Shown piece after piece: positions 7,110-17,275 of a DNA stretch of 17,275 nucleotides (the first letter of the stretch is position 1; every line of letters starts with the position of its first letter). Position numbers and translations under genes: made by a program. This DNA is from Flavobacteriaceae bacterium (lineage in GTDB: Bacteria > Bacteroidota > Bacteroidia > Flavobacteriales > Flavobacteriaceae). The stretch covers positions 16,648-33,922 of the forward strand of contig PATA01000015.1 of NCBI GenBank assembly GCA_002713495.1, given 5' to 3'. The notes below the pieces were generated by a model. It saw nothing but the letters and a program-made list of their open reading frames with translations. It searched no databases and had not been told where the DNA came from.

Positions 7110-8411
7110 ATGAATAAAAATCAATTTGGTCGTATTTTTGATGAGTTGTTTCCTGTAAACAGATCAATTCTTGGAATTGGATACAGAAAAAGTTTAAAAA
7201 TCATACAGAAATATATTCCTTTCAATATAATAAGGTTTAAATCTGGTGAGAAAGTTTTTGACTGGAAAATACCCCTTGAATGGTCAATTGTTGAAGGTTA
7301 TTTATTGTCTCCAGATAGAAAAAAAATTATTGATTATAAAGAAAATAATCTACATGTTATTAGTTATTCCGATTCCATAAAAAAAACTATGGGGCTAGAT
7401 GAATTAAAAAAACATTTATATACTCAAAAGGATTTGGAGAATGCCATTCCTTATATTACATCATATTATAAAAAAAATTGGGGTTTTGGGATTGCCTATA
7501 AACAGTATAAAAAATTAAAGAAAGGAAATTATACAGTTACAATTAACTCTAATTTCAAAAAAGGAATATTAGAGGTAGGTGAAAAAATTTTATATGGAAG
7601 GCGAAAAAATGAAATTTTAATCTCAACATATTTATGTCACCCTTCTATGGCAAACAATGAATTAAGTGGTCCATTGGTAATGATTGATTTATATCATAAA
7701 ATAAAAAGTTTAAAAAAGCGTCAATTTAGTTATAGGTTTGTAATAAACCCTGAAACTATCGGTTCTATAGCATATATTTCAAAAAAAGAGAAAGAATTAA
7801 AAAAAAATATATTAGGTGGTATTGTTTTAACATGTTTGGGAGGCCCTTCTAAAAAATTAAGTTATAAATTATCAAAAAACTCAAACTCAATAATTGATAG
7901 ATTATTTAAAAACTCAAGTGATATTAGAATTAGAGAATTTACTCCTTTTGGTGGATCAGATGAAAGACAATATAATTCTCCAGGGATTGATCTTAAAATT
8001 GGTCAGATAGCAAGAACTGTTTATCAAGAGTACCCCGAATATCATACTTCTCTTGATGATAAAAATTTTATGAAAATTGACAAAGTAATTGATAGCTCTA
8101 ATCAAATAATGAATTTAATTAATGACCTTGAAAATCAAACTTTTTACATTAACCTTAAACCTAAATGTGAGCCGCAACTTGGTAGGAGAAACTTGTATCC
8201 AAATATTAATTCAAAATTGACAAGAGAGGAAAAATCAAACGATAACCTGATTGATGGTAGAGAATTTAATAAATTTTCAATGATATTATTAAACTATTCT
8301 GATGGGACCTATTCTTTAGAAGATCTTGTTTCAAAGTTTAAAATTGATATGAATACAGCCAATGCTGTTGCTCAGGTTCTAGAAAAAAATAAATTAATTA
8401 AAAAATTATGA
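7110..8411 (+). CDS. DUF4910/DUF2172-type aminopeptidase-like protein with C-terminal winged helix
   Basis: A 433-residue protein with the three-part build of the DUF4910 family: an N-terminal segment with FPVNRSILG near 14-22 and a DUF2172-like insert (WSIVEGYLLSP), an M28-peptidase-like zinc domain, and a small C-terminal helical domain (about 375-433) resembling a winged helix. Likely metal ligands are H177 in TYLCHPSMANNELSG, E184 or N183, E215 in INPETIGSI, D284 in GGSDERQY and H312 in YHTSLDD. No signal peptide is visible, so it should act in the cytoplasm. The family is common in nonulosonate and amidinated-sugar loci but its substrate is not established; an amide-cleaving role on a sugar intermediate is an inference. 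It follows the NeuB-like gene by 15 nt and overlaps the formyltransferase-like gene by 4 nt. Confidence 0.82.
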   Translation: MNKNQFGRIFDELFPVNRSILGIGYRKSLKIIQKYIPFNIIRFKSGEKVFDWKIPLEWSIVEGYLLSPDRKKIIDYKENNLHVISYSDSIKKTMGLDELKKHLYTQKDLENAIPYITSYYKKNWGFGIAYKQYKKLKKGNYTVTINSNFKKGILEVGEKILYGRRKNEILISTYLCHPSMANNELSGPLVMIDLYHKIKSLKKRQFSYRFVINPETIGSIAYISKKEKELKKNILGGIVLTCLGGPSKKLSYKLSKNSNSIIDRLFKNSSDIRIREFTPFGGSDERQYNSPGIDLKIGQIARTVYQEYPEYHTSLDDKNFMKIDKVIDSSNQIMNLINDLENQTFYINLKPKCEPQLGRRNLYPNINSKLTREEKSNDNLIDGREFNKFSMILLNYSDGTYSLEDLVSKFKIDMNTANAVAQVLEKNKLIKKL

Positions 8412-9211
8412 GAGTACTTTTAATTTGTGGTGATCATCCAAGACATAAGTTTATTGCAAATATTTTAAATAGTAATAAACTTCTAACTTCTTTAATTGTA
8501 GAGCAAAGAGAAAGCTTTATCCCTGTCCTAGATAAGCAATATGATAATAATATTTTAAAACTACACGATTTGCATTTTAAGAAAAGAGAACAAGCTGAAT
8601 TAGAGGTTTTTGGAGATGAAAATTTTACTTTTACTAATTATTTAAAAATAAAAGCAGATCAAATAAACTCAGCTAAATGCCATGAATTTGTTTTAAATGA
8701 AAAGCCTGATATTGTAATTACTTGTGGATGTGGAATTTTATCTGAAGAAACTTTGAGTATTTTTCCAACTCAAACGTGGAATATTCATGGAGGTTTATCA
8801 CCATGGTTTAAGGGAGCAATTACCCATTTTTGGCCGTCTTATTTATTAAAACCTCAATTTACTGGAGTAACAATTCATTATATAACATCTAAAATAGATG
8901 CGGGAAATATAATTCACCAAACCCCAGCTCATTTAGTAAAAAATGATGGACTCCATCAGTTATCTTCTAGATCATTAAAACTTGGTTTTTTATCAATAAT
9001 TGATTTATTGAATAAATATAAATTGAATGGTAAAATAAATTCAATTGAGCAAAAATTAACTGGTAAACTTTGGTTGAAAAAAGACTGGAAACCAGAACAT
9101 TTAATATTGGTATATGATAAATTTAAAGATGACATAGTGAATATGTATTTGTCAAAAAAGTTAAATCAAGAAATGCCAAAAATCTATAATAATTTTAATA
9201 ATACAAATTAG
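8408..9211 (+). CDS. Formyltransferase-like protein (methionyl-tRNA formyltransferase superfamily, glycan locus type)
   Basis: A 267-residue protein with a formyl-transferase N domain. The catalytic Asn-His-Asp set is recognisable as N125 and H127 in WNIHGGLSPWFKG and D164 in ITSKIDAGNII. The usual HxSLLPxxxG loop of Fmt and ArnA is altered to HGGLSPWFKG, a variant found in glycan-associated relatives. Members of the superfamily move a formyl group from 10-formyl-tetrahydrofolate to an amine, here presumably an amino sugar; the acceptor is unknown. No OB-fold C-terminal domain of tRNA formyltransferases is present; instead there is a short lysine- and asparagine-rich tail from about 225. That tail is matched by a decayed copy at 17048-17170. 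It overlaps the DUF4910 gene by 4 nt and lies 4 nt before the hisF-like gene, so it belongs to the same operon. Confidence 0.83.
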   Translation: MRVLLICGDHPRHKFIANILNSNKLLTSLIVEQRESFIPVLDKQYDNNILKLHDLHFKKREQAELEVFGDENFTFTNYLKIKADQINSAKCHEFVLNEKPDIVITCGCGILSEETLSIFPTQTWNIHGGLSPWFKGAITHFWPSYLLKPQFTGVTIHYITSKIDAGNIIHQTPAHLVKNDGLHQLSSRSLKLGFLSIIDLLNKYKLNGKINSIEQKLTGKLWLKKDWKPEHLILVYDKFKDDIVNMYLSKKLNQEMPKIYNNFNNTN

Positions 9212-9215
9212 TTAG

Positions 9216-9974
9216 ATGATTAAAAGAAGAATAATATCAAGAATTGATATTAAAAACGAATATGTTATCAAGGGTATTCAGCTAGAGGGATTAAGGAAGG
9301 TTGGAATGCCAAATGATATGGCATTGAAATATTACAATGAGGGGATTGATGAAATTATTTTCATGGATGCGGTTGCGTCTTATTATGATAGAAATAGTTT
9401 GTCAAAAATAATTGATATTGCCACCAATAATATATTTGTTCCTATTACTGTTGGAGGAGGTATAAGAAATATCAATGATATAAATACCCTTCTGAAGATT
9501 GGTGCCGATAAAGTTGCTATTAATACAGCGGCAGTAAAAAATCCATTATTTATAAAAAAAGCATCAAAGATTTTTGGATCTCAATGCATAGTTTCATCAA
9601 TTGAAGCTAAAAAAATTGATAAAGAAAAATGGTATGTATATTTTGATAATGGAAGAGAGGCTACAAATATTGATGTAATTGATTGGGCAAAAGAGGTTCA
9701 AAAAATGGGAGCGGGTGAAATTCTTATAACATCAATTGATCATGAGGGAACAAAGAAAGGGTTTGATTATGAGTTGAATAAAAGTGTTTCAGAGAGTGTG
9801 TCTATACCCGTAATATCCTCGGGAGGTGCAAGTTCTTCTGGTGACATATTAAAATTGTTTAATTCTACTGAAGTTGAGGCTGTTGCACTTGCATCTATTT
9901 TGCATTTTAACCTTAGCTCAATCAATTCAATTAAGAGGAGTTTATTAGCAAACAAAGTTAACATAAGAATATGA
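9216..9974 (+). CDS. HisF paralogue (HisF2-type partner of sugar amidotransferase)
   Basis: A 252-residue TIM barrel of the HisF family. Shared features are D11 in the first strand (SRIDIKN), FMDA with D51, TVGGGIRN near 78-84, INTAAVKNP with N103, GSQCIV, and SSGGAS near 200. However, the second catalytic acid of imidazole glycerol phosphate synthase, Asp130, is Glu here (SSIEAKK, E130), and the conserved Cys9 is Arg. Together with the following glutaminase and N-acetyl sugar amidotransferase, this matches the HisH2-HisF2-WbpG arrangement of Pseudomonas O-antigen loci, where the pair supplies ammonia for acetamidino groups. I infer that it keeps the ammonia channel and docking surface while histidine synthesis is not its job; no other his gene is nearby. 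It overlaps the next gene by 4 nt. Confidence 0.88.
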   Translation: MIKRRIISRIDIKNEYVIKGIQLEGLRKVGMPNDMALKYYNEGIDEIIFMDAVASYYDRNSLSKIIDIATNNIFVPITVGGGIRNINDINTLLKIGADKVAINTAAVKNPLFIKKASKIFGSQCIVSSIEAKKIDKEKWYVYFDNGREATNIDVIDWAKEVQKMGAGEILITSIDHEGTKKGFDYELNKSVSESVSIPVISSGGASSSGDILKLFNSTEVEAVALASILHFNLSSINSIKRSLLANKVNIRI

Positions 9975-10606
9975 GTGCTGATATAGTAATAATAGATTAT
10001 GGAATAGGAAATATTAAAAGTATTTGCAGTGCTTTGAGTCATTTTAATATTAATATATCCATTTCAAATGATGAGGATGAAATCCTTTCTGCTAAGGGTA
10101 TAATTCTCCCTGGAGTCGGTGCATTTAAGTCGGGTATGAAAAATTTACTTGAATTAAATTTAGATTTAACATTAAAAAAATATTTTGAAACTAATAAACC
10201 AATATTAGGCATATGTTTGGGCATGCAATTATTATTTGAAAGTAGTGAAGAATTTGGGTTTTGTGAGGGTCTAGGACTTATAGAGGGAAAAGTTCAAAAG
10301 CTAAAAAATGAAAAAAAATTGCCACACATAGCATGGAGTGAAATAAAAAAAACCAATTCTGATAACACTATTTTAGATGGTATTAACAATAATTCAGATT
10401 TTTATTTCGTTCATTCATTTGTATCTTACCCAAAAAATACTAGTGAAATGATTGCTTCCTCAAACTACTATAATCAGGAATTTTGTTCGGTTGTTAAAAA
10501 AGGTAATATCTATGGTTGTCAATTCCATCCAGAAAAAAGTGGATCTAAAGGACTAAAGCTTTTAGAAAATTTTATAAGATTAACCAATAAACCTTCTCAC
10601 AGATGA
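9971..10606 (+). CDS. HisH paralogue, class I glutamine amidotransferase subunit
   Basis: A 211-residue triad glutaminase. The nucleophile is C82 in LGICLGMQLLFE, and the triad is completed by H186 and E188 in CQFHPEKSG. The N terminus VIIDYGIGNIKSI and the PGVGAFKSGM loop are typical of HisH. It hydrolyses glutamine and passes ammonia through the HisF-like barrel encoded just upstream. The two genes overlap by an ATGA, as do this gene and the amidotransferase, which indicates translational coupling of a three-subunit unit. Because the partner barrel has a changed catalytic site and no histidine genes are present, the likely job is ammonia supply for sugar amidination rather than histidine synthesis. 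No truncation or missing triad residue is seen. Confidence 0.9.
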   Translation: MSADIVIIDYGIGNIKSICSALSHFNINISISNDEDEILSAKGIILPGVGAFKSGMKNLLELNLDLTLKKYFETNKPILGICLGMQLLFESSEEFGFCEGLGLIEGKVQKLKNEKKLPHIAWSEIKKTNSDNTILDGINNNSDFYFVHSFVSYPKNTSEMIASSNYYNQEFCSVVKKGNIYGCQFHPEKSGSKGLKLLENFIRLTNKPSHR

Positions 10607-11829
10607 CAAAAAAAACATTTTATGGGTTACCTGAAAAAGTAAAATTTTGCAAAAAATGTGTTATTTCTAACCAAAGACCTTCATCTACAGTTGAATTTAA
10701 ACATGATGATAAATCTAATAAGGCTGTTATAGAGTTTGATGAAAACCAAGTCTGTTCAGCATGTAGATATAATGAAATTAAAAATAAAGATATAGATTGG
10801 AGAGAAAGGGAAGAATATTTACATAAATTACTTGATAAGCATCGATCTAAAGATGGATCTTATGACGTTATTGTTCCAGGAAGTGGCGGAAAAGATAGTG
10901 CATATACCTCACATCTCTTAAAATATAAATATGGAATGAATCCACTAACGGTGACATGGGCACCACACTTATATACTGAAATAGGCTGGGAAAATATGCA
11001 AAATTGGTCACATGTTGGGGGACTGGATAATTTACTTTTTACTCCAAATGGTCGTCTTCATAGATTAATGACAAAAAATGCATTTCATAATTTATTACAT
11101 CCATTTCAACCTTTTATAATTGGTCAAAGAATTATTGGTCCAATGATGGCGAATAATTATGGTGTCAAATTAGTTATGTATGGAGAAAATCAGGCAGAGT
11201 ATGGCAACTCAATTAGTGAAAATAGAAAACCCCTTATGAATATGGATTTCTTTTCCACTAAGGACCCATTAAAAATGATGTTTGGTGGAAAAACTATGAG
11301 AGAATATATTGAATCATATAATTTTTCAAAAAATGATTTTAAGCCATATATCGCTCCAAAAAAACAAGAAATTTTAGATTCTAAAATTGAAGTTCATTAT
11401 TTAAGTTTTTACACCAAATGGGATCCTCAAGAATGTTATTACTATGCAGTTGAAAATACTGGATTCAAACCAAACAAAGAGAGAACAGAGGGAACATACT
11501 CAAAATATTCAAGTATTGATGATAAGATAGACCCATTTCATTACTACACAACATTAATTAAATTTGGAATTGGAAGATGCACATATGATGCTTCACAAGA
11601 AGTTAGAAATGAAAAGATTACCAGGGATGAGGCAGCATATTTAGTTGAAAAATATGACACAGAATTTCCAAGTAAATTTTTTAAAGAGTTTTTAGAATAT
11701 ATCGATACTTCAGAGGAAAATTTTTTTAAAACAGTTGAAAAATTTAGAAGCCCACATATTTGGGGAAAAGATTCAACTAATCAATGGAAATTAAGGCATA
11801 ATGTAATGAAGTCTGGTTTAGAAGATTAA
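10603..11829 (+). CDS. N-acetyl sugar amidotransferase (WbpG/PseA/WbuX family)
   Basis: A 408-residue ATP-dependent amidotransferase. Residues 16-19 (CKKC) and 51-54 (CSAC) form two CxxC pairs, probably a zinc site, flanking the conserved VISNQRPSS and FDENQVCSACRYNE blocks. The PP-loop ATP pyrophosphatase motif SGGKDS is at 94-99, within VPGSGGKDSAYTSHLLK. The family adenylates an N-acetyl group on a sugar nucleotide or nonulosonate and replaces its oxygen with ammonia, giving an acetamidino group. The HisH/HisF pair directly upstream should provide the ammonia, as in WbpG systems. Which sugar is modified here is not known; a 5- or 7-N-acyl group of the nonulosonate made by the upstream module is plausible. 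The gene ends convergently with the minus-strand glycosyltransferase, their stop codons sharing bases. Confidence 0.92.
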   Translation: MTKKTFYGLPEKVKFCKKCVISNQRPSSTVEFKHDDKSNKAVIEFDENQVCSACRYNEIKNKDIDWREREEYLHKLLDKHRSKDGSYDVIVPGSGGKDSAYTSHLLKYKYGMNPLTVTWAPHLYTEIGWENMQNWSHVGGLDNLLFTPNGRLHRLMTKNAFHNLLHPFQPFIIGQRIIGPMMANNYGVKLVMYGENQAEYGNSISENRKPLMNMDFFSTKDPLKMMFGGKTMREYIESYNFSKNDFKPYIAPKKQEILDSKIEVHYLSFYTKWDPQECYYYAVENTGFKPNKERTEGTYSKYSSIDDKIDPFHYYTTLIKFGIGRCTYDASQEVRNEKITRDEAAYLVEKYDTEFPSKFFKEFLEYIDTSEENFFKTVEKFRSPHIWGKDSTNQWKLRHNVMKSGLED

Positions 11830-12923
11830 ACACAAGATTTTAAAAAGTTTATTGTTTTAATTACATTATCGTTCCAATTATAATATTTAGATAATTTATG
11901 ATTTTCAATTGACATTTTATTTAGTTTTTCAGTTTTCATATTCTCAATAATTATTTTTTGAATACTATTTATATCATAACTATCAAACAATATATTTTTA
12001 CCATACAACATTTCACTCATAGGTTTTTTAGTTGATGTTATAATAGGCATTCCATATGACATTGCTTCTAGTAATATAAATGGCAAATTTTCACATGTAG
12101 ATGCAAAAAGGATAAGAGAACTTTTTTTATAATAGTTAATTATTCCATCATTAGGAACAAAACCAACTATATTAATTCTACTTTTCAAAATTTTATTTTT
12201 TGATATAATTTTTTTTATGGGACTGATTGAGGAATTATCATAATTTCCTATTAGATTCAAATAAACATCATAACCATTATCTAAAATTTTTTTCACTGAA
12301 TTTACAACATTGAGCTGGTGCTTATAGGGAAGAAAGTCTGAGACATAAGTTATTTTAAAAGGCTTATTATAAGGTGTGTAGACATTTTTATTTGATTGGT
12401 TTATCCCATGAGGAATAATTGCATATTTAGTCTTTAATTTATGTTTGTTTAAAATATTCTCTTTTGCATATTCATTCAGGAAGATAACTCCATTAGATTT
12501 CATAAATGTTTTTAATTGCAATACTTTTATTAGGTAAAATTTAATCTTTTTAAAAAATTTGAAATTTTTGATTTCAATAGGATCAAATGGTAACATATTT
12601 TGACTCATAGAAACAAATGGCCTAAAAGATGATAAAAATATTCCTCCAGGCACAAAAACAACCTCACAGTTATTTTCTTTAAAGTATGATTTTGAATAAA
12701 TTAATTGAGAGAGAAAAGATGTAATATTATTGAAATTTAAAAGTCTGTTGGTTATAGAGTAAACATTACTTAGCTTACTTATATTTTGTAATGTAGTTTT
12801 GTTAGATACTACAATATATTTGATCTTAGATCCAAAAATTTTATTTGAATTAACTATAAATTGTTCTAAATGTTTTTTACCCCCTCCAGTTCTTATGTTA
12901 GATCCATCTATACCAATTATCAT
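11826..12923 (-). CDS. Glycosyltransferase, GT4-like (GT-B fold)
   Basis: A 365-residue retaining-type glycosyltransferase. The N-terminal half starts with a strand and GGGKKHLEQF, the glycine-rich turn of GT-B enzymes. The C-terminal half has IPHGIN near 170-175, ITYVSDFLPYKHQ near 191-203, and the donor-binding EX7E motif with E278 and E286 in STCENLPFILLEAMSYG. It would transfer a sugar from a nucleotide donor to a growing cytoplasmic glycan; donor and acceptor cannot be read. The start is ATG at 12921-12923; no Shine-Dalgarno-like sequence is seen upstream. It is the last gene of a three-gene minus-strand block, 20 nt after the HAD phosphatase gene, and its TAA shares bases with the TAA of the converging amidotransferase gene. 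Confidence 0.88.
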   Translation of the reverse strand: MIIGIDGSNIRTGGGKKHLEQFIVNSNKIFGSKIKYIVVSNKTTLQNISKLSNVYSITNRLLNFNNITSFLSQLIYSKSYFKENNCEVVFVPGGIFLSSFRPFVSMSQNMLPFDPIEIKNFKFFKKIKFYLIKVLQLKTFMKSNGVIFLNEYAKENILNKHKLKTKYAIIPHGINQSNKNVYTPYNKPFKITYVSDFLPYKHQLNVVNSVKKILDNGYDVYLNLIGNYDNSSISPIKKIISKNKILKSRINIVGFVPNDGIINYYKKSSLILFASTCENLPFILLEAMSYGMPIITSTKKPMSEMLYGKNILFDSYDINSIQKIIIENMKTEKLNKMSIENHKLSKYYNWNDNVIKTINFLKSCV

Positions 12924-12943
12924 AATTTAAAAATGTATTTAAA

Positions 12944-13234
12944 CTATATTTCTTCAATTCTTTTGGTTTTATCGCAAATAAGTAAATCGTAATATGGTTT
13001 TTGTCCTACTGATAATTTATGGTATTTACAATTCCATTTTTTTAATTGTTTTTCAGTCAATTCAAAATGATCAATTTTTGTAATTGATCCTCTTGCTGTC
13101 CAATAAATTATTTCGTTACCACTATCATATAACTTATTGATTTTTTCAATATTTGCAAAAATTGGTGAGGATTTAGAATAGTCCATTCCTTCAGTTTTAC
13201 AAATAGTATTATCAATATCCACATATATTTTCAT
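12944..13234 (-). CDS. Small HAD-superfamily phosphatase, capsule/polysaccharide type
   Basis: A 96-residue minimal HAD protein. Motif I is DIDNTIC with nucleophile D6 and general acid D8, motif II/III surroundings are IIYWTARGS (T46, R48) and QKPYYDLL (K79), as in the short phosphatases found in capsule and lipopolysaccharide loci. The usual acidic pair near the C terminus is Cys87-Asp88 (LICDKTKR), so one metal-ligand position is changed while D88 remains. It may dephosphorylate a sugar phosphate, although members of this small group are poorly characterised. The gene sits 5 nt after the stop of the upstream 500-residue protein gene and 20 nt before the GT4 gene on the same strand, so all three are likely co-transcribed. 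Confidence 0.8.
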   Translation of the reverse strand: MKIYVDIDNTICKTEGMDYSKSSPIFANIEKINKLYDSGNEIIYWTARGSITKIDHFELTEKQLKKWNCKYHKLSVGQKPYYDLLICDKTKRIEEI

Positions 13235-13239
13235 AACAA

Positions 13240-14742
13240 TTAGCGTTTAACTTTAGTTTGTCCAAAAATTAAGTTTCTTAAATACATACCAAAGTTGTAT
13301 AAGATATCTAAATTTCCTTTGATTATATGAACATATAATTTTGCAGGAACTGCAATCAATCTTAAATATAGTGGAGCTCTGCAAGACTTACCTCCGTATG
13401 TATATACACCGTCTTCGATAAAATCATAAGCTTTGAGAGCAAATGAAGATTTCATTTCATATGTAAAAGAGATTATTGAGCCTCTTATTGGCATTATTTT
13501 GTATTTTTTGTGGTATATTAAATCTATAGCTTCATCAGTTGAATCAACAAGATTTGCAATTAAGAATTTCATATATAAACTTGGGCCTATTTGAACAACT
13601 GGCTTTCTCATGTAATTTGCTTCACGAGAAATACTTGAGCAAAAATTAACAATTAATTCACTGTGTTTAATAAGAGCATAACTGTCAGTATAACTTTCCG
13701 GGAAAAGAACGTTAACCTCATTAGCTAACAATTTATATCTTTCCATAATTGATTTATGAATATTTTTTTGATTTGGATGCATTTTGACAACAAAATCGAA
13801 CTTTTCAGATAGTTTCGAGTTTATTAATTTCCTTATACTGTCAATTTGGTCCAAAATGTAATAATCGCCCCAATCTAAACCAATAAATCTATATTCATCA
13901 TCACTTGAAACAAAAATAGAAATAAGAGGTTTTTTGAGTTCTTTTATGGTTTCATCAATGTGACCCGATATTTGATTTTTGGTGTAAGCAAAATCATCTA
14001 CTTCAACCCTATTAATTTTTGTATAAAAATACTGCTCAGCAAGAGATCTTGAATCTTTAAACCATTTTAAATAAGTGATTAATGAATTTCTTTTTTCAAA
14101 TTCTATCGAGTGAAACATTTCGTTGGTAGAATACATTGGTACCTTTCCGTTAAGAGCTGCATCAAATAAGTGAAAATTTACACTATTTTTTTTTGATACC
14201 TCGATTAATGGTCTTCCGCAACTTAGCCTCCCATTAAAAATAACAAAATTATTAACTTTATTTGTTGTGAAAAAACTATCAAAATAGGAATATAATGCAT
14301 AAGAAGATTCTAACATTCTTTCCTTAACCTTCTTCCATCTATTATTCAAAAGATCCATGTTTTCTAGTCTTAACTGAGAACCGATTGTTGAATGAACTCC
14401 CAATAAAAATTCATTATTTTGATCATCACTAAAATTATTATAGTTAATTTCTTTATTGAAAAGATCTGATCTTTTTATATGTATTAACTCAGATTTTGGA
14501 TTTCTTTTTTTAAATTCTTTAAATCCTTTTTTTGCTTTATGTGTACAAATATTGCAAATGCTTTTTTTATTGAAAACATTTACCGAACAACTTTTTAGAG
14601 CCCGATCGCACATAAAAAATACATGTTTATCTCTGTTATTTTCAAGATGAATTTTCTCACTAAATGCAAGATTTAACTCCAAAGAGGGACTTTGAGCCGC
14701 CAAGTTCAAATATGATATATTGAATGATTTATTTTTAGTCAC
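13240..14742 (-). CDS. Capsule-type GT-B-like protein with N-terminal cysteine cluster
   Basis: A 500-residue protein of uncertain family. The N-terminal part holds AAQSPSLELNLAF and a cysteine cluster C45, C52, C63 and C66 (CDRALKSC, then CNIC). The C-terminal half looks like a GT-B or capsule-polysaccharide/CDP-glycerol-transferase fold: VVKMHPNQ at about 318-325, then SELIVNFCSSISREANYMRKPVVQIG at about 371-396 split here only by position, in which the Ser-Ser/Glu segment resembles the donor site of such enzymes. Hydrophobic or amphipathic residues near 455-490 could touch the membrane. The start is GTG at 14740-14742. It is the first gene of the minus-strand block, facing the repeat-bearing divergent region. 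A glycosyl- or phosphoglycosyl-transfer role is inferred from fold-like motifs and context only. Confidence 0.62.
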   Translation of the reverse strand: MTKNKSFNISYLNLAAQSPSLELNLAFSEKIHLENNRDKHVFFMCDRALKSCSVNVFNKKSICNICTHKAKKGFKEFKKRNPKSELIHIKRSDLFNKEINYNNFSDDQNNEFLLGVHSTIGSQLRLENMDLLNNRWKKVKERMLESSYALYSYFDSFFTTNKVNNFVIFNGRLSCGRPLIEVSKKNSVNFHLFDAALNGKVPMYSTNEMFHSIEFEKRNSLITYLKWFKDSRSLAEQYFYTKINRVEVDDFAYTKNQISGHIDETIKELKKPLISIFVSSDDEYRFIGLDWGDYYILDQIDSIRKLINSKLSEKFDFVVKMHPNQKNIHKSIMERYKLLANEVNVLFPESYTDSYALIKHSELIVNFCSSISREANYMRKPVVQIGPSLYMKFLIANLVDSTDEAIDLIYHKKYKIMPIRGSIISFTYEMKSSFALKAYDFIEDGVYTYGGKSCRAPLYLRLIAVPAKLYVHIIKGNLDILYNFGMYLRNLIFGQTKVKR

Positions 14743-14756
14743 AGAAAATTATTAAA

Positions 14757-14783
14757 AATCAAGTAACAAAAGTACTTAATTTA
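14757..14783 (+). repeat. 27-bp direct repeat, copy 1
   Basis: Matches positions 14882-14908 at 26 of 27 bases (C versus T at the tenth base). The core contains the perfect 8-bp palindrome AAGTACTT. It lies 15 nt upstream of the GTG of the minus-strand gene, a place compatible with an operator or promoter element. Confidence 0.85.
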
Positions 14784-14881
14784 TATAACAAAATCAAAAA
14801 TTTTATTTATTTGGAAAAAATAATTTTCTGATATTAAAATAATTAATACTAATTTTGATAGTTTAAATTTTATATATTCAC

Positions 14882-14908
14882 AATCAAGTAATAAAAGTAC
14901 TTAATTTA
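14882..14908 (+). repeat. 27-bp direct repeat, copy 2
   Basis: Second copy of the repeat at 14757-14783, offset by 125 bp and in the same orientation, with one mismatch and the same AAGTACTT palindrome. It ends 24 nt before the ATG of the plus-strand glycosyltransferase. Because copies share orientation while the genes diverge, they cannot both be equivalent core promoters. Confidence 0.85.
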
Positions 14909-14932
14909 ATTCATTATGTTTCTAAATATATT

Positions 14933-15994
14933 ATGATCAAAATAAATAGCTCAAAGAATGTTATTTTCTTATATCCAGAAATTACACCATATTTTATTGG
15001 TTGCATAAATAATTTTTCCAATAATTTTCCAAAAATAAAACTTCATATAGTTTATGATTCTATATTTAAAACTGTCATTGTGAACAAAAATGCTAATTAT
15101 ACATTAAAACAAAAAAATAAATTTTCTCTAAAACAGCACTTATACGATTATTGTTTTAGTTTAAATCCTGACTTAATTTTAATTTCAGGAAGAATGTATA
15201 AGGATTACTTGTACGTTGCCAAAAAAATTAAGAAAATATGCAAAACAGTTACGGTTCAAGATTCAATTTATACAAATTCTATTAAACAATTTATTATTAG
15301 AATATTCAGTTTTTTTCTCTATAAAAGATATTTTGATAAATTTTGGGGTGTAGGACATTTACAAAGAAAATTTGCATTAGATATTGGTTATGATAACGAA
15401 AATATTTACGATGGATTTTATGTAGCAGATAAAATTTTCTTTGATAGTTCAAAAAAACATAAATTTTATGGAAAAAAAATTACTTTTTTATTTATTGGAA
15501 GACTTGTGGATGAAAAAAATATTCTAAGATTTGTAGAGGCAATAGATATTATAAATAAAAAGGATAATTTGGAGCATAAAATCAATATAATTGGTAGCGG
15601 TTATTTGAAAGATAAGTTATTACAATTTAAGTTTGTTAATTACAGAGGATTACTTAATCAAAAGGAGATTATTAATATAGCTAATAAATCAGATGTTTTT
15701 TGTCTTCCAAGTAAATTTGAACCATGGGGAGTTGTTACACATGAAATGACTGCATTAGGACTTCCTGTTTTGATATCAAAAAACTGTGGATCAATAGATT
15801 TAGTAAAAAGTGGTAAAAATGGATTTGTTTTTGATCCCTTGGATTATAATTCCATGATTACTGCAATTAGAAAATTTATTTTATTGCCCAAGGCTGAAAA
15901 AATGCAGTTTAGCTTAAATTCAATTAAAATCTCAAAAACCATAAATCATGATTTATGGAACAAAACTTTACATTCATTAATTGTAACCAAATGA
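14933..15994 (+). CDS. Glycosyltransferase, GT4 family
   Basis: A 353-residue GT-B glycosyltransferase. The donor-binding half is clear: FLFIGRLVDEKNI near 185-197, INIIGSGYLKD near 208-218, YRGLLNQKEI, and the EX7E motif with E253 and E261 in KFEPWGVVTHEMTALG. LPVLISKNCGS and GKNGFVFDPLD complete the pattern of GT4 enzymes. The N-terminal acceptor half is divergent. It is not a close copy of the minus-strand GT4 at 11826-12923. It starts the plus-strand unit after the repeat-bearing region; the ATG at 14933 is preceded only by AT-rich sequence without an evident ribosome binding site. It overlaps neuB by 4 nt, so it may act on or with the sialic acid made by that module. Donor sugar is unknown. 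Confidence 0.88.
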   Translation: MIKINSSKNVIFLYPEITPYFIGCINNFSNNFPKIKLHIVYDSIFKTVIVNKNANYTLKQKNKFSLKQHLYDYCFSLNPDLILISGRMYKDYLYVAKKIKKICKTVTVQDSIYTNSIKQFIIRIFSFFLYKRYFDKFWGVGHLQRKFALDIGYDNENIYDGFYVADKIFFDSSKKHKFYGKKITFLFIGRLVDEKNILRFVEAIDIINKKDNLEHKINIIGSGYLKDKLLQFKFVNYRGLLNQKEIINIANKSDVFCLPSKFEPWGVVTHEMTALGLPVLISKNCGSIDLVKSGKNGFVFDPLDYNSMITAIRKFILLPKAEKMQFSLNSIKISKTINHDLWNKTLHSLIVTK

Positions 15995-17019
15995 GAATAA
16001 AAAACAGAGATATAGGAATAAAATATCCTCCACTAATCATTGCGGAGATTGGAATTAATCACAATGGAGACATAAATATCGCAAAAAAGATGGTCGATAG
16101 TGCAAAAAGAGCTGGTGTTGAAATTGTAAAACATCAAACGCATATAGTCGAAGATGAGATGAGTCCAGAAGCCAAAAAAGTAATCCCAGGGAATTCTGAG
16201 AAATCCATATTCCAAATTATGCAAGAGTGTTCTTTGAATTATGAAGATGAATTAGAGCTTAAAAATTATGTAGAGAAATCTGGAATGATCTTCATTTCAA
16301 CTCCTTTTTCTAGAGCAGCAGTTGACAGGCTAGTTTCAATGGATGTTCCGGCTTTCAAAATAGGAAGTGGTGAATGTAATAATTATCCGTTAGTTGAATA
16401 CATATGTAAGTTTAAAAAACCAATAATTTTGAGTACAGGGATGAATTCAATAGAAAGTGTAAGTAAAAGTGTTGATATAATAAAAAAAAATAAACTTCAA
16501 TATGCTCTTCTTCATACTACAAACTTATATCCAACCCCCTTTAATTTAGTAAGATTAGGTGGAATGCAAAAATTAATGAAAGTCTTTCCAGGAGTACCGG
16601 TGGGATTGAGTGATCATACAATTAATAATCTTTCTTCCTATTCAGCTATAGCACTTGGTGCTTCAATCATAGAAAGACATTTTACTGATACAATGGATAG
16701 AGTTGGACCTGATATTATTTGTTCAATGGATGAATTGACATGCAAGGAATTAATTCAAAGCTCAAAAAATATTAAATCAATGCTTGGGGGTAAAAAAGAG
16801 GCGGCAATGGAAGAAAAAATAACCTCAAATTTTGCCTTTTCAACGGTAGTAACTATTAAGGAAATTAAATCCGGAGATGTATTTTCTTATGAAAACATAT
16901 GGGTTAAACGACCAGGAACAGGTGAAATACCTGCTGAAAAATTTAATGATCTTTTAGGAAAAATTTCTAATAAATCATTTAAAATTGGTGAACATGTTAA
17001 ATATTCAGATTTTCATTAA
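15991..17019 (+). CDS. neuB: N-acetylneuraminate synthase, canonical sialic acid type
   Basis: A 342-residue enzyme that condenses phosphoenolpyruvate with N-acetylmannosamine. From memory it closely resembles meningococcal NeuB through long blocks such as VKHQTHIVEDEMS, GMIFISTPFSRAA and KIGSGECNNYPL. Key residues fit with a near-constant shift of 6-7: E19 (E25 there), metal-binding H209 and H230 (H215, H236), and R307 in VKRPGTG of the SAF domain (R314), which contacts ManNAc across the dimer. The frame is open from ATG 15955, but that start would overlap the glycosyltransferase by 40 nt and add 12 residues; ATG 15991 gives the ATGA overlap used throughout this locus, so I prefer it. A NeuC-type epimerase that would make ManNAc begins at 17177, separated by a formyltransferase remnant. 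Confidence 0.93.
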   Translation: MRIKNRDIGIKYPPLIIAEIGINHNGDINIAKKMVDSAKRAGVEIVKHQTHIVEDEMSPEAKKVIPGNSEKSIFQIMQECSLNYEDELELKNYVEKSGMIFISTPFSRAAVDRLVSMDVPAFKIGSGECNNYPLVEYICKFKKPIILSTGMNSIESVSKSVDIIKKNKLQYALLHTTNLYPTPFNLVRLGGMQKLMKVFPGVPVGLSDHTINNLSSYSAIALGASIIERHFTDTMDRVGPDIICSMDELTCKELIQSSKNIKSMLGGKKEAAMEEKITSNFAFSTVVTIKEIKSGDVFSYENIWVKRPGTGEIPAEKFNDLLGKISNKSFKIGEHVKYSDFH

Positions 17020-17047
17020 ATAAATTATTTTTGTAAAGGCACTATAA

Positions 17048-17170
17048 CCGATTGAACATTTAATATTAGTATATGATAAATTTAACCATGACATGTTGAA
17101 CATGTTTTTGTCACAAAAATCAAATCAAGACTTGTCAAATATTTACAATAATTTTGATGATTTAAACTAA
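17048..17170 (+). pseudogene. 3' remnant of a formyltransferase-like gene
   Basis: Read in one frame, 17054-17170 encodes a 38-residue tail, starting EHLILVYDKF and ending IYNNFDDLN with a TAA at 17168-17170. It aligns without gaps to the last 38 residues of the formyltransferase-like protein at 8408-9211, with 24 identical residues. The frame is closed upstream by a TAA at 17045-17047, and the bases just before suggest a lost nucleotide. The catalytic domain is absent. It is a decayed end of a diverged paralogue, not a recent exact copy. The following gene starts 6 nt later, just as hisF starts 4 nt after the intact copy. Confidence 0.87.
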
Positions 17171-17176
17171 TTTATT

Positions 17177-17275
17177 ATGATAAAAATATTCATTATAACC
17201 GAGAGAAGAGCGGATTATTCAAGATTTAAACCAATTTTAGATCTGATCGTAAAAGATAAAGATTTAGATTATTCT
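17177..17275 (+). CDS. neuC: N-terminus of NeuC-type UDP-N-acetylglucosamine 2-epimerase (hydrolysing), partial at 3' edge
   Basis: Only the first 33 codons are in the window. They read as an initial beta strand followed by RRADYSRFKPILDLI, the N-terminal signature of hydrolysing UDP-GlcNAc 2-epimerases such as NeuC, LegG and the epimerase half of animal GNE. This enzyme would give ManNAc from UDP-GlcNAc for the neuB product just upstream. The residue pair before R11 (E9-R10) differs from the more usual T-G-T-R. The ATG at 17177 lies 6 nt after the stop of the formyltransferase remnant. The assignment rests on a short segment, so a related LegG/NnaA-type epimerase using another UDP-sugar is possible. 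Confidence 0.75.
   Translation, partial: MIKIFIITERRADYSRFKPILDLIVKDKDLDYS

Follow-up and report, generated by a model that had tools for sequence, protein, structure and literature searches.

On sequence grounds, the 38 codons and stop codon at nt 17054–17170 (plus strand), located between neuB and neuC in the window (the whole 17,275-nt stretch of Flavobacteriaceae DNA that was analysed), represent the non-functional 3′-terminal part of a formyltransferase gene belonging to the clade of the intact gene at nt 8408–9211. This assignment draws on homology, a direct repeat, a variant on a second contig (C13), and departure from conserved columns, and the remnant probably marks a place where a cluster of surface-sugar genes was broken and joined anew. 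A marine origin of the bacterium is suggested by the Tara source of the clade protein P0002 and by the nature of the relatives.

Genes surrounding the remnant

The intact formyltransferase (267 aa, plus strand) possessed a Formyl_trans_N domain (PF00551, 53.1 bits), and its nearest solved sequences were those of PseJ (6ci2/6ci4; E 9e-10). The start of its gene overlapped the DUF4910 stop by 4 bp, and the same 4-bp overlap was observed by eye in a relative, G387 (window nt 7110–9211; L123, 8347–10508); occurrence of the overlap in both suggests that DUF4910 and the formyltransferase form a functional pair. The neuB gene, encoding a sialic-acid-type synthase (PF03102 plus SAF), occupied nt 15955–17019 of the plus strand with its stop codon at nt 17017–17019; it scored 385.8 bits with TIGR03569, slightly below the cut-off of 399.65, and comparison with relatives places its true start probably at nt 15991. 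neuC (TIGR03568, 362.7 bits, over the cut-off of 235.9) was represented by its 5′-end at nt 17177–17275 of the plus strand, truncated by the contig end. The segment between the two copies of the direct repeat described below, nt 9212–17053, is the putative insert and encompassed hisF, hisH, an amidotransferase gene, three genes on the opposite strand, GT14933, and neuB.

In the gap between the divergent genes GT13240 and GT14933, there was a 34-nt direct repeat (91%; nt 14750–14783 and 14875–14908), whose core, CAAGTAAYAAAAGTACTTAATTTA, had just these two copies in its own genome when up to 3 mismatches were allowed and was seen once, by eye, in the corresponding gap of the relative G460. Judged from this recurrence, the repeat is likely a conserved regulatory element that was duplicated in the window.

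Homology and boundaries of the remnant

The frame at nt 17048–17167, which was followed by a stop codon at nt 17168–17170, translated into PIEHLILVYDKFNHDMLNMFLSQKSNQDLSNIYNNFDDLN. From its E (nt 17054) onwards, it aligned without gaps to residues 230–267 of the intact protein, with 24 of 38 positions identical and a BLOSUM62 score of 136. By comparison, resampling the 157-nt gap between neuB and neuC 3,000 times (first-order; three forward frames) gave a best score of 50, and the best among 633 further segments of this length from the window, read in six frames, was 59, a match on the antisense strand of neuB that was taken as chance. The stop-terminated match to the formyltransferase C-terminus described in the initial annotation thus survived controls for composition; the extent given there, nt 17048–17170, was correct at the stop and not at the start, the match beginning at nt 17054. 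An independent repeat search returned the same region as a direct repeat (D1) of 119 nt with 82% identity, one copy lying at nt 17054–17172 and the other at nt 9095–9213 (plus strand), where the intact formyltransferase gene ends, and both extending a little beyond the stop codons. From first codon to stop, 95 of 117 nt were identical between the copies, the successive thirds sharing 36, 31, and 28 of 39, with the left third densest.

The catalytic domain was absent, as had been claimed, since Formyl_trans_N corresponds to residues 72–192 of the intact protein and the remnant to residues 230–267 only. No start codon was present at the beginning of the remnant: an in-frame stop (nt 17045–17047) precedes it and the first in-frame start, ATG at nt 17093, is internal. 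Above-chance similarity to a portion of a known gene, together with the lack of a functional domain and of its own start, is what characterizes a gene remnant.

The left edge of the homology was at nt 17053/17054, leaving a spacer of 34 nt (nt 17020–17053, plus strand) behind the neuB stop. An alignment of this spacer with the formyltransferase, read as the frameshifted GKLWLKKDWKP, was obtained and rejected as not significant, equal scores being reached by 159 of 1,500 resamples and 138 of 1,223 real 34-mers. A weak tblastn extension upstream of the tail (residues 200–229) was also dropped, being neuB coding sequence in another frame. The spacer likewise showed no significant similarity to the 3′-end of SDR2, a dehydratase gene: in anchored comparisons, equal scores occurred in 111 of 800 (G460) and 259 of 800 (C13) resamples, and when the spacer was slid along SDR2, 16 of 200 and 21 of 200 resamples scored as high, the resamples being slid more coarsely than the real spacer. 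On the right, 6 nt (nt 17171–17176, plus strand) separated the remnant stop from the neuC start; the equivalent spacer in the intact locus, from formyltransferase to hisF, was 4 nt. No Bacteroidetes-type promoter pattern was found in the gap, and the window as a whole had 3 matches versus 2.35 expected.

A second variant and decay of the tail

The window ends where its contig, C15, ends, in a genome of 1.66 Mb in 20 contigs. The end of contig C13 repeated the last 345 nt of the window at 97%, with neuB, tail, and neuC in identical order, and continued beyond the tail into a complete neuC (372 aa, L002:373–1491) followed by SDR2. The 10 differences over these 345 nt comprised 1 in 89 nt of neuB, 1 in 34 and 1 in 6 in the spacers, 6 in 117 in the tail, and 1 in 99 in neuC, that is, 8 of 157 in the gap versus 2 of 188 in the genes, a marginal excess (Fisher p = 0.048). 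It is unlikely that the neuB-tail-neuC junction is an assembly accident; C15 and C13 probably join at the junction and were left unmerged through strain variation. Because the C13 stretch (L046) contained 94 ambiguous bases in 14.7 kb and the window none, the assembly appears to combine sequence from different strain variants. A 42-nt match was also observed on contig C14 (L048; E 7.7e-4).

Five of the six differences between the tail variants altered a residue. When aligned with 120 homologues, those listed out of 186, the tail departed at three of the seven columns conserved in at least 90% of those 120. Among the same listed homologues, 92 had no departure at these seven columns, 22 had one, and 6 had two, three or more being found in none of the 120. 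H241, L244, and S257, common to both variants, occurred in none of the 120 listed homologues, while V235, one of the three departures of the tail, is also present in the intact gene. Whole-tail profile scores were 17.6 and 26.5 for the two variants, against a median of 55.6 and a 5% point of 33.2 for the listed homologues, although the lowest of those 120 (16.6, 20.2, and 23.4) scored as low as the tails. Few sites are involved and the strength of this signal is modest, but in these alignments the tail looks unconstrained relative to the formyltransferase family. The scar recognized in the initial annotation is accordingly retained here as a decayed 3′-end from the formyltransferase clade.

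The tail differed from the intact gene to the extent that species of the clade differ from one another (P0001 compared with P0002–P0010, 21–27 of 34), a divergence equally compatible with two alleles and with an old duplication.

Gene order in a syntenic relative

Locus L065 (CACIHJ010000001.1) belongs to AG-435-G19 (genome G460), which we take from its naming to be a marine single-cell genome. Its order was CTPt, UGD, ABC transporter, SDR, CMP-transferase, NeuB-like, neuC, SDR2, inverted neuB and GT14933, GT13240, a 96-aa protein gene, and GT11826. In the window, the order was CTPt, UGD, ABC, SDR, two CMP-transferases, NeuB-like, DUF4910, formyltransferase, hisF, hisH, and amidotransferase, then inverted GT11826, 96-aa, and GT13240, and finally GT14933, neuB, tail, neuC, and SDR2, where the remainder of neuC and SDR2 were read from C13. 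Identities to the G460 counterparts were 73% for UGD, 73% for ABC, 61% for SDR, 47% for CMP, and 37% for NeuB-like; 85% for neuC, 77% for SDR2, 78% for the inverted neuB, and 67% for GT14933; and 63% for GT13240, 73% for the 96-aa protein, and 55% for GT11826.

The pairs GT14933-neuB and neuC-SDR2 were both kept in G460 and joined otherwise, the block carrying neuB being inverted and on the opposite side of neuC-SDR2 relative to the window; therefore, the tail sits on a rearrangement junction. Moreover, neuC of G460 was directly 3′ of the gene at the position of the NeuB-like, DUF4910, and formyltransferase genes of the window, which suggests that in the lineage of the window neuC formerly lay behind the formyltransferase. 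The parallel previously drawn between the two neighbourhoods of the window (NeuB-like, DUF4910, formyltransferase, hisF versus neuB, remnant, neuC) holds loosely and not strictly, as the second is without DUF4910.

Distribution among relatives

Loci with a complete formyltransferase between neuB and neuC, which the initial annotation had proposed to search for, did not appear: a same-strand neuB-type gene was present upstream in 45 of 54 neuC loci, and an intervening formyltransferase in none of the 45 (tblastn, E ≤ 1e-6), a result that concerns the history of the remnant and not its homology. The other nine loci had no neuB-type gene upstream on the stretch covered and were uninformative on an intervening formyltransferase. 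In 23 of the 45, neuB and neuC were no more than 60 nt apart; the two genes adjoined in G086 (AG-390-P11), L066, and L068, with a 4-bp overlap in G086 and L066. A formyltransferase match was found in one of the 54 loci (L067; 30%), downstream of neuC, and no locus was found with a formyltransferase of this clade directly before neuC.

The best formyltransferase in 149 relatives, besides the genome's own, shared 27% (G013). With a clade profile, matches were obtained in 7 of 397 family genomes at E ≤ 1e-25, including the genome itself, the closest being G387 (2.5e-63), and the sole match among 395 order genomes at E ≤ 1e-45 was the genome's own gene. DUF4910 was upstream of the formyltransferase in G387 also, and no neuC was seen there by eye among ORFs of at least 120 aa in 16 kb. 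This neuC was present at E ≤ 1e-80 in 3 of the 397 family genomes (its own, G086, and G355) and, within the genus of G460, in 1 of 25 genomes, G460 itself; G001, from the same genus, lacked the tail and carried a different neuC (35%) after its neuB (58%). The tail matched at E < 0.05 only loci of its own genome among the loci compared, the next being L088 (E 0.051). Phage records yielded just two weak formyltransferase matches (<60%). Six IMG/VR contigs (L050–L055) carried neuB-neuC-SDR2 at about 56–64% to this locus, with equal values for L053 and L054; they are either viral surface-sugar genes or misclassified bacterial contigs.

Origin of the junction

An insertion gives the best account of this arrangement, with about an even chance of being right: neuC would once have stood behind the formyltransferase, and an inserted segment would have left the 3′-end of the resident gene at the junction of GT14933-neuB with neuC-SDR2. 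The ancestral order would have been NeuB-like, DUF4910, formyltransferase, neuC, and SDR2, and the donor segment would have consisted of formyltransferase-hisF-hisH-amidotransferase-(inverted glycosyltransferases)-GT14933-neuB. On the left, homologous exchange would have occurred between the donor and resident formyltransferase genes, and on the right, the ends would have been joined without homology 34 nt past the neuB stop; the last 117 nt of the resident formyltransferase would have stayed before neuC and then drifted. What we infer is which way the rearrangement ran and that homology acted on one side only. Because neuB and neuC are so frequently close (23 of 45), their adjacency may instead be ancestral and G460 the rearranged genome. 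With low confidence, the direct repeat can be read as the trace of a one-step insertion of approximately 7.9 kb by one-sided homologous recombination within a formyltransferase of a glycan locus, converting NeuB-like-formyltransferase-neuC into neuB-neuC, and exchange may recur at formyltransferase ends in the surface-sugar loci of bacteria like this one.

The initial annotation had offered two origins, of which the junction mark fits better, given the pairs rejoined in G460. The other, in which a formyltransferase belonging to the sialic or legionaminic module itself (order neuB, formyltransferase, neuC) was deleted except for its last 38 codons, is possible though doubtful. It agrees with the position and orientation of the remnant and, with neuB and neuC so often within 60 nt of each other, would require just an inserted gene and a deletion, but it found no direct support in the 45 informative loci, neuB is located elsewhere in the syntenic G460, and no significant formyltransferase likeness was observed upstream of nt 17054.

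It is unlikely that the 119-nt piece alone was copied from the formyltransferase 3′-end by a short templated duplication, with never a second gene. The piece directly repeats the end of an intact gene in the same genome, and the two tail variants were nearer to P0001 (23 and 24 of 34), a protein 99% identical to the window's own, than to P0002–P0010 (15–23 of 34); however, the copies diverge like species of the clade, so that such a copy would be old, and a piece that ends just past the stop codon and 6 nt short of the following start looks more like what was once the end of a gene. A conserved stand-alone small protein, or a leader controlling neuC translation, is highly improbable, for although the remnant lies within the immediate leader of neuC, no candidate relative of the 40-residue stretch was found in 5.8 billion proteins (a short query being a weak probe of limited sensitivity), the variants show residue-changing drift, the tail matched only loci of its own genome among those compared, and the window had no Rfam match at gathering thresholds.

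Comparison with known systems

Read as the product of an insertion, the remnant would be a mark of how the surface-sugar locus of an uncultured Flavobacteriaceae relative was reassembled; it is also a warning against annotating a gene in the neuB-neuC gap. A literature search retrieved nothing for AG-435-G19, marine flavobacterial islands, or PseJ.

Homology-facilitated illegitimate recombination is the term for such one-sided events (PMC3240628). The proposed insertion would resemble it in having a homologous joint in the formyltransferase and an end joining after neuB, and is reconstructed here from one product. In Salmonella O-antigen clusters, partial wzy genes occur in differing states of decay, and in group D2 a remnant element lies at a proposed recombination junction (PMC3715488). 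Like those wzy remnants, the present one is a decayed gene part in a surface-sugar cluster whose state varies among related forms; unlike them, it involves another gene and another phylum, and relatives that carry the whole gene in the corresponding place are known there and not here. Remnants of genes are a familiar feature of O-antigen clusters, and the one between neuB and neuC is therefore an ordinary case of gene-cluster shuffling, of the kind known from Salmonella, in another phylum.
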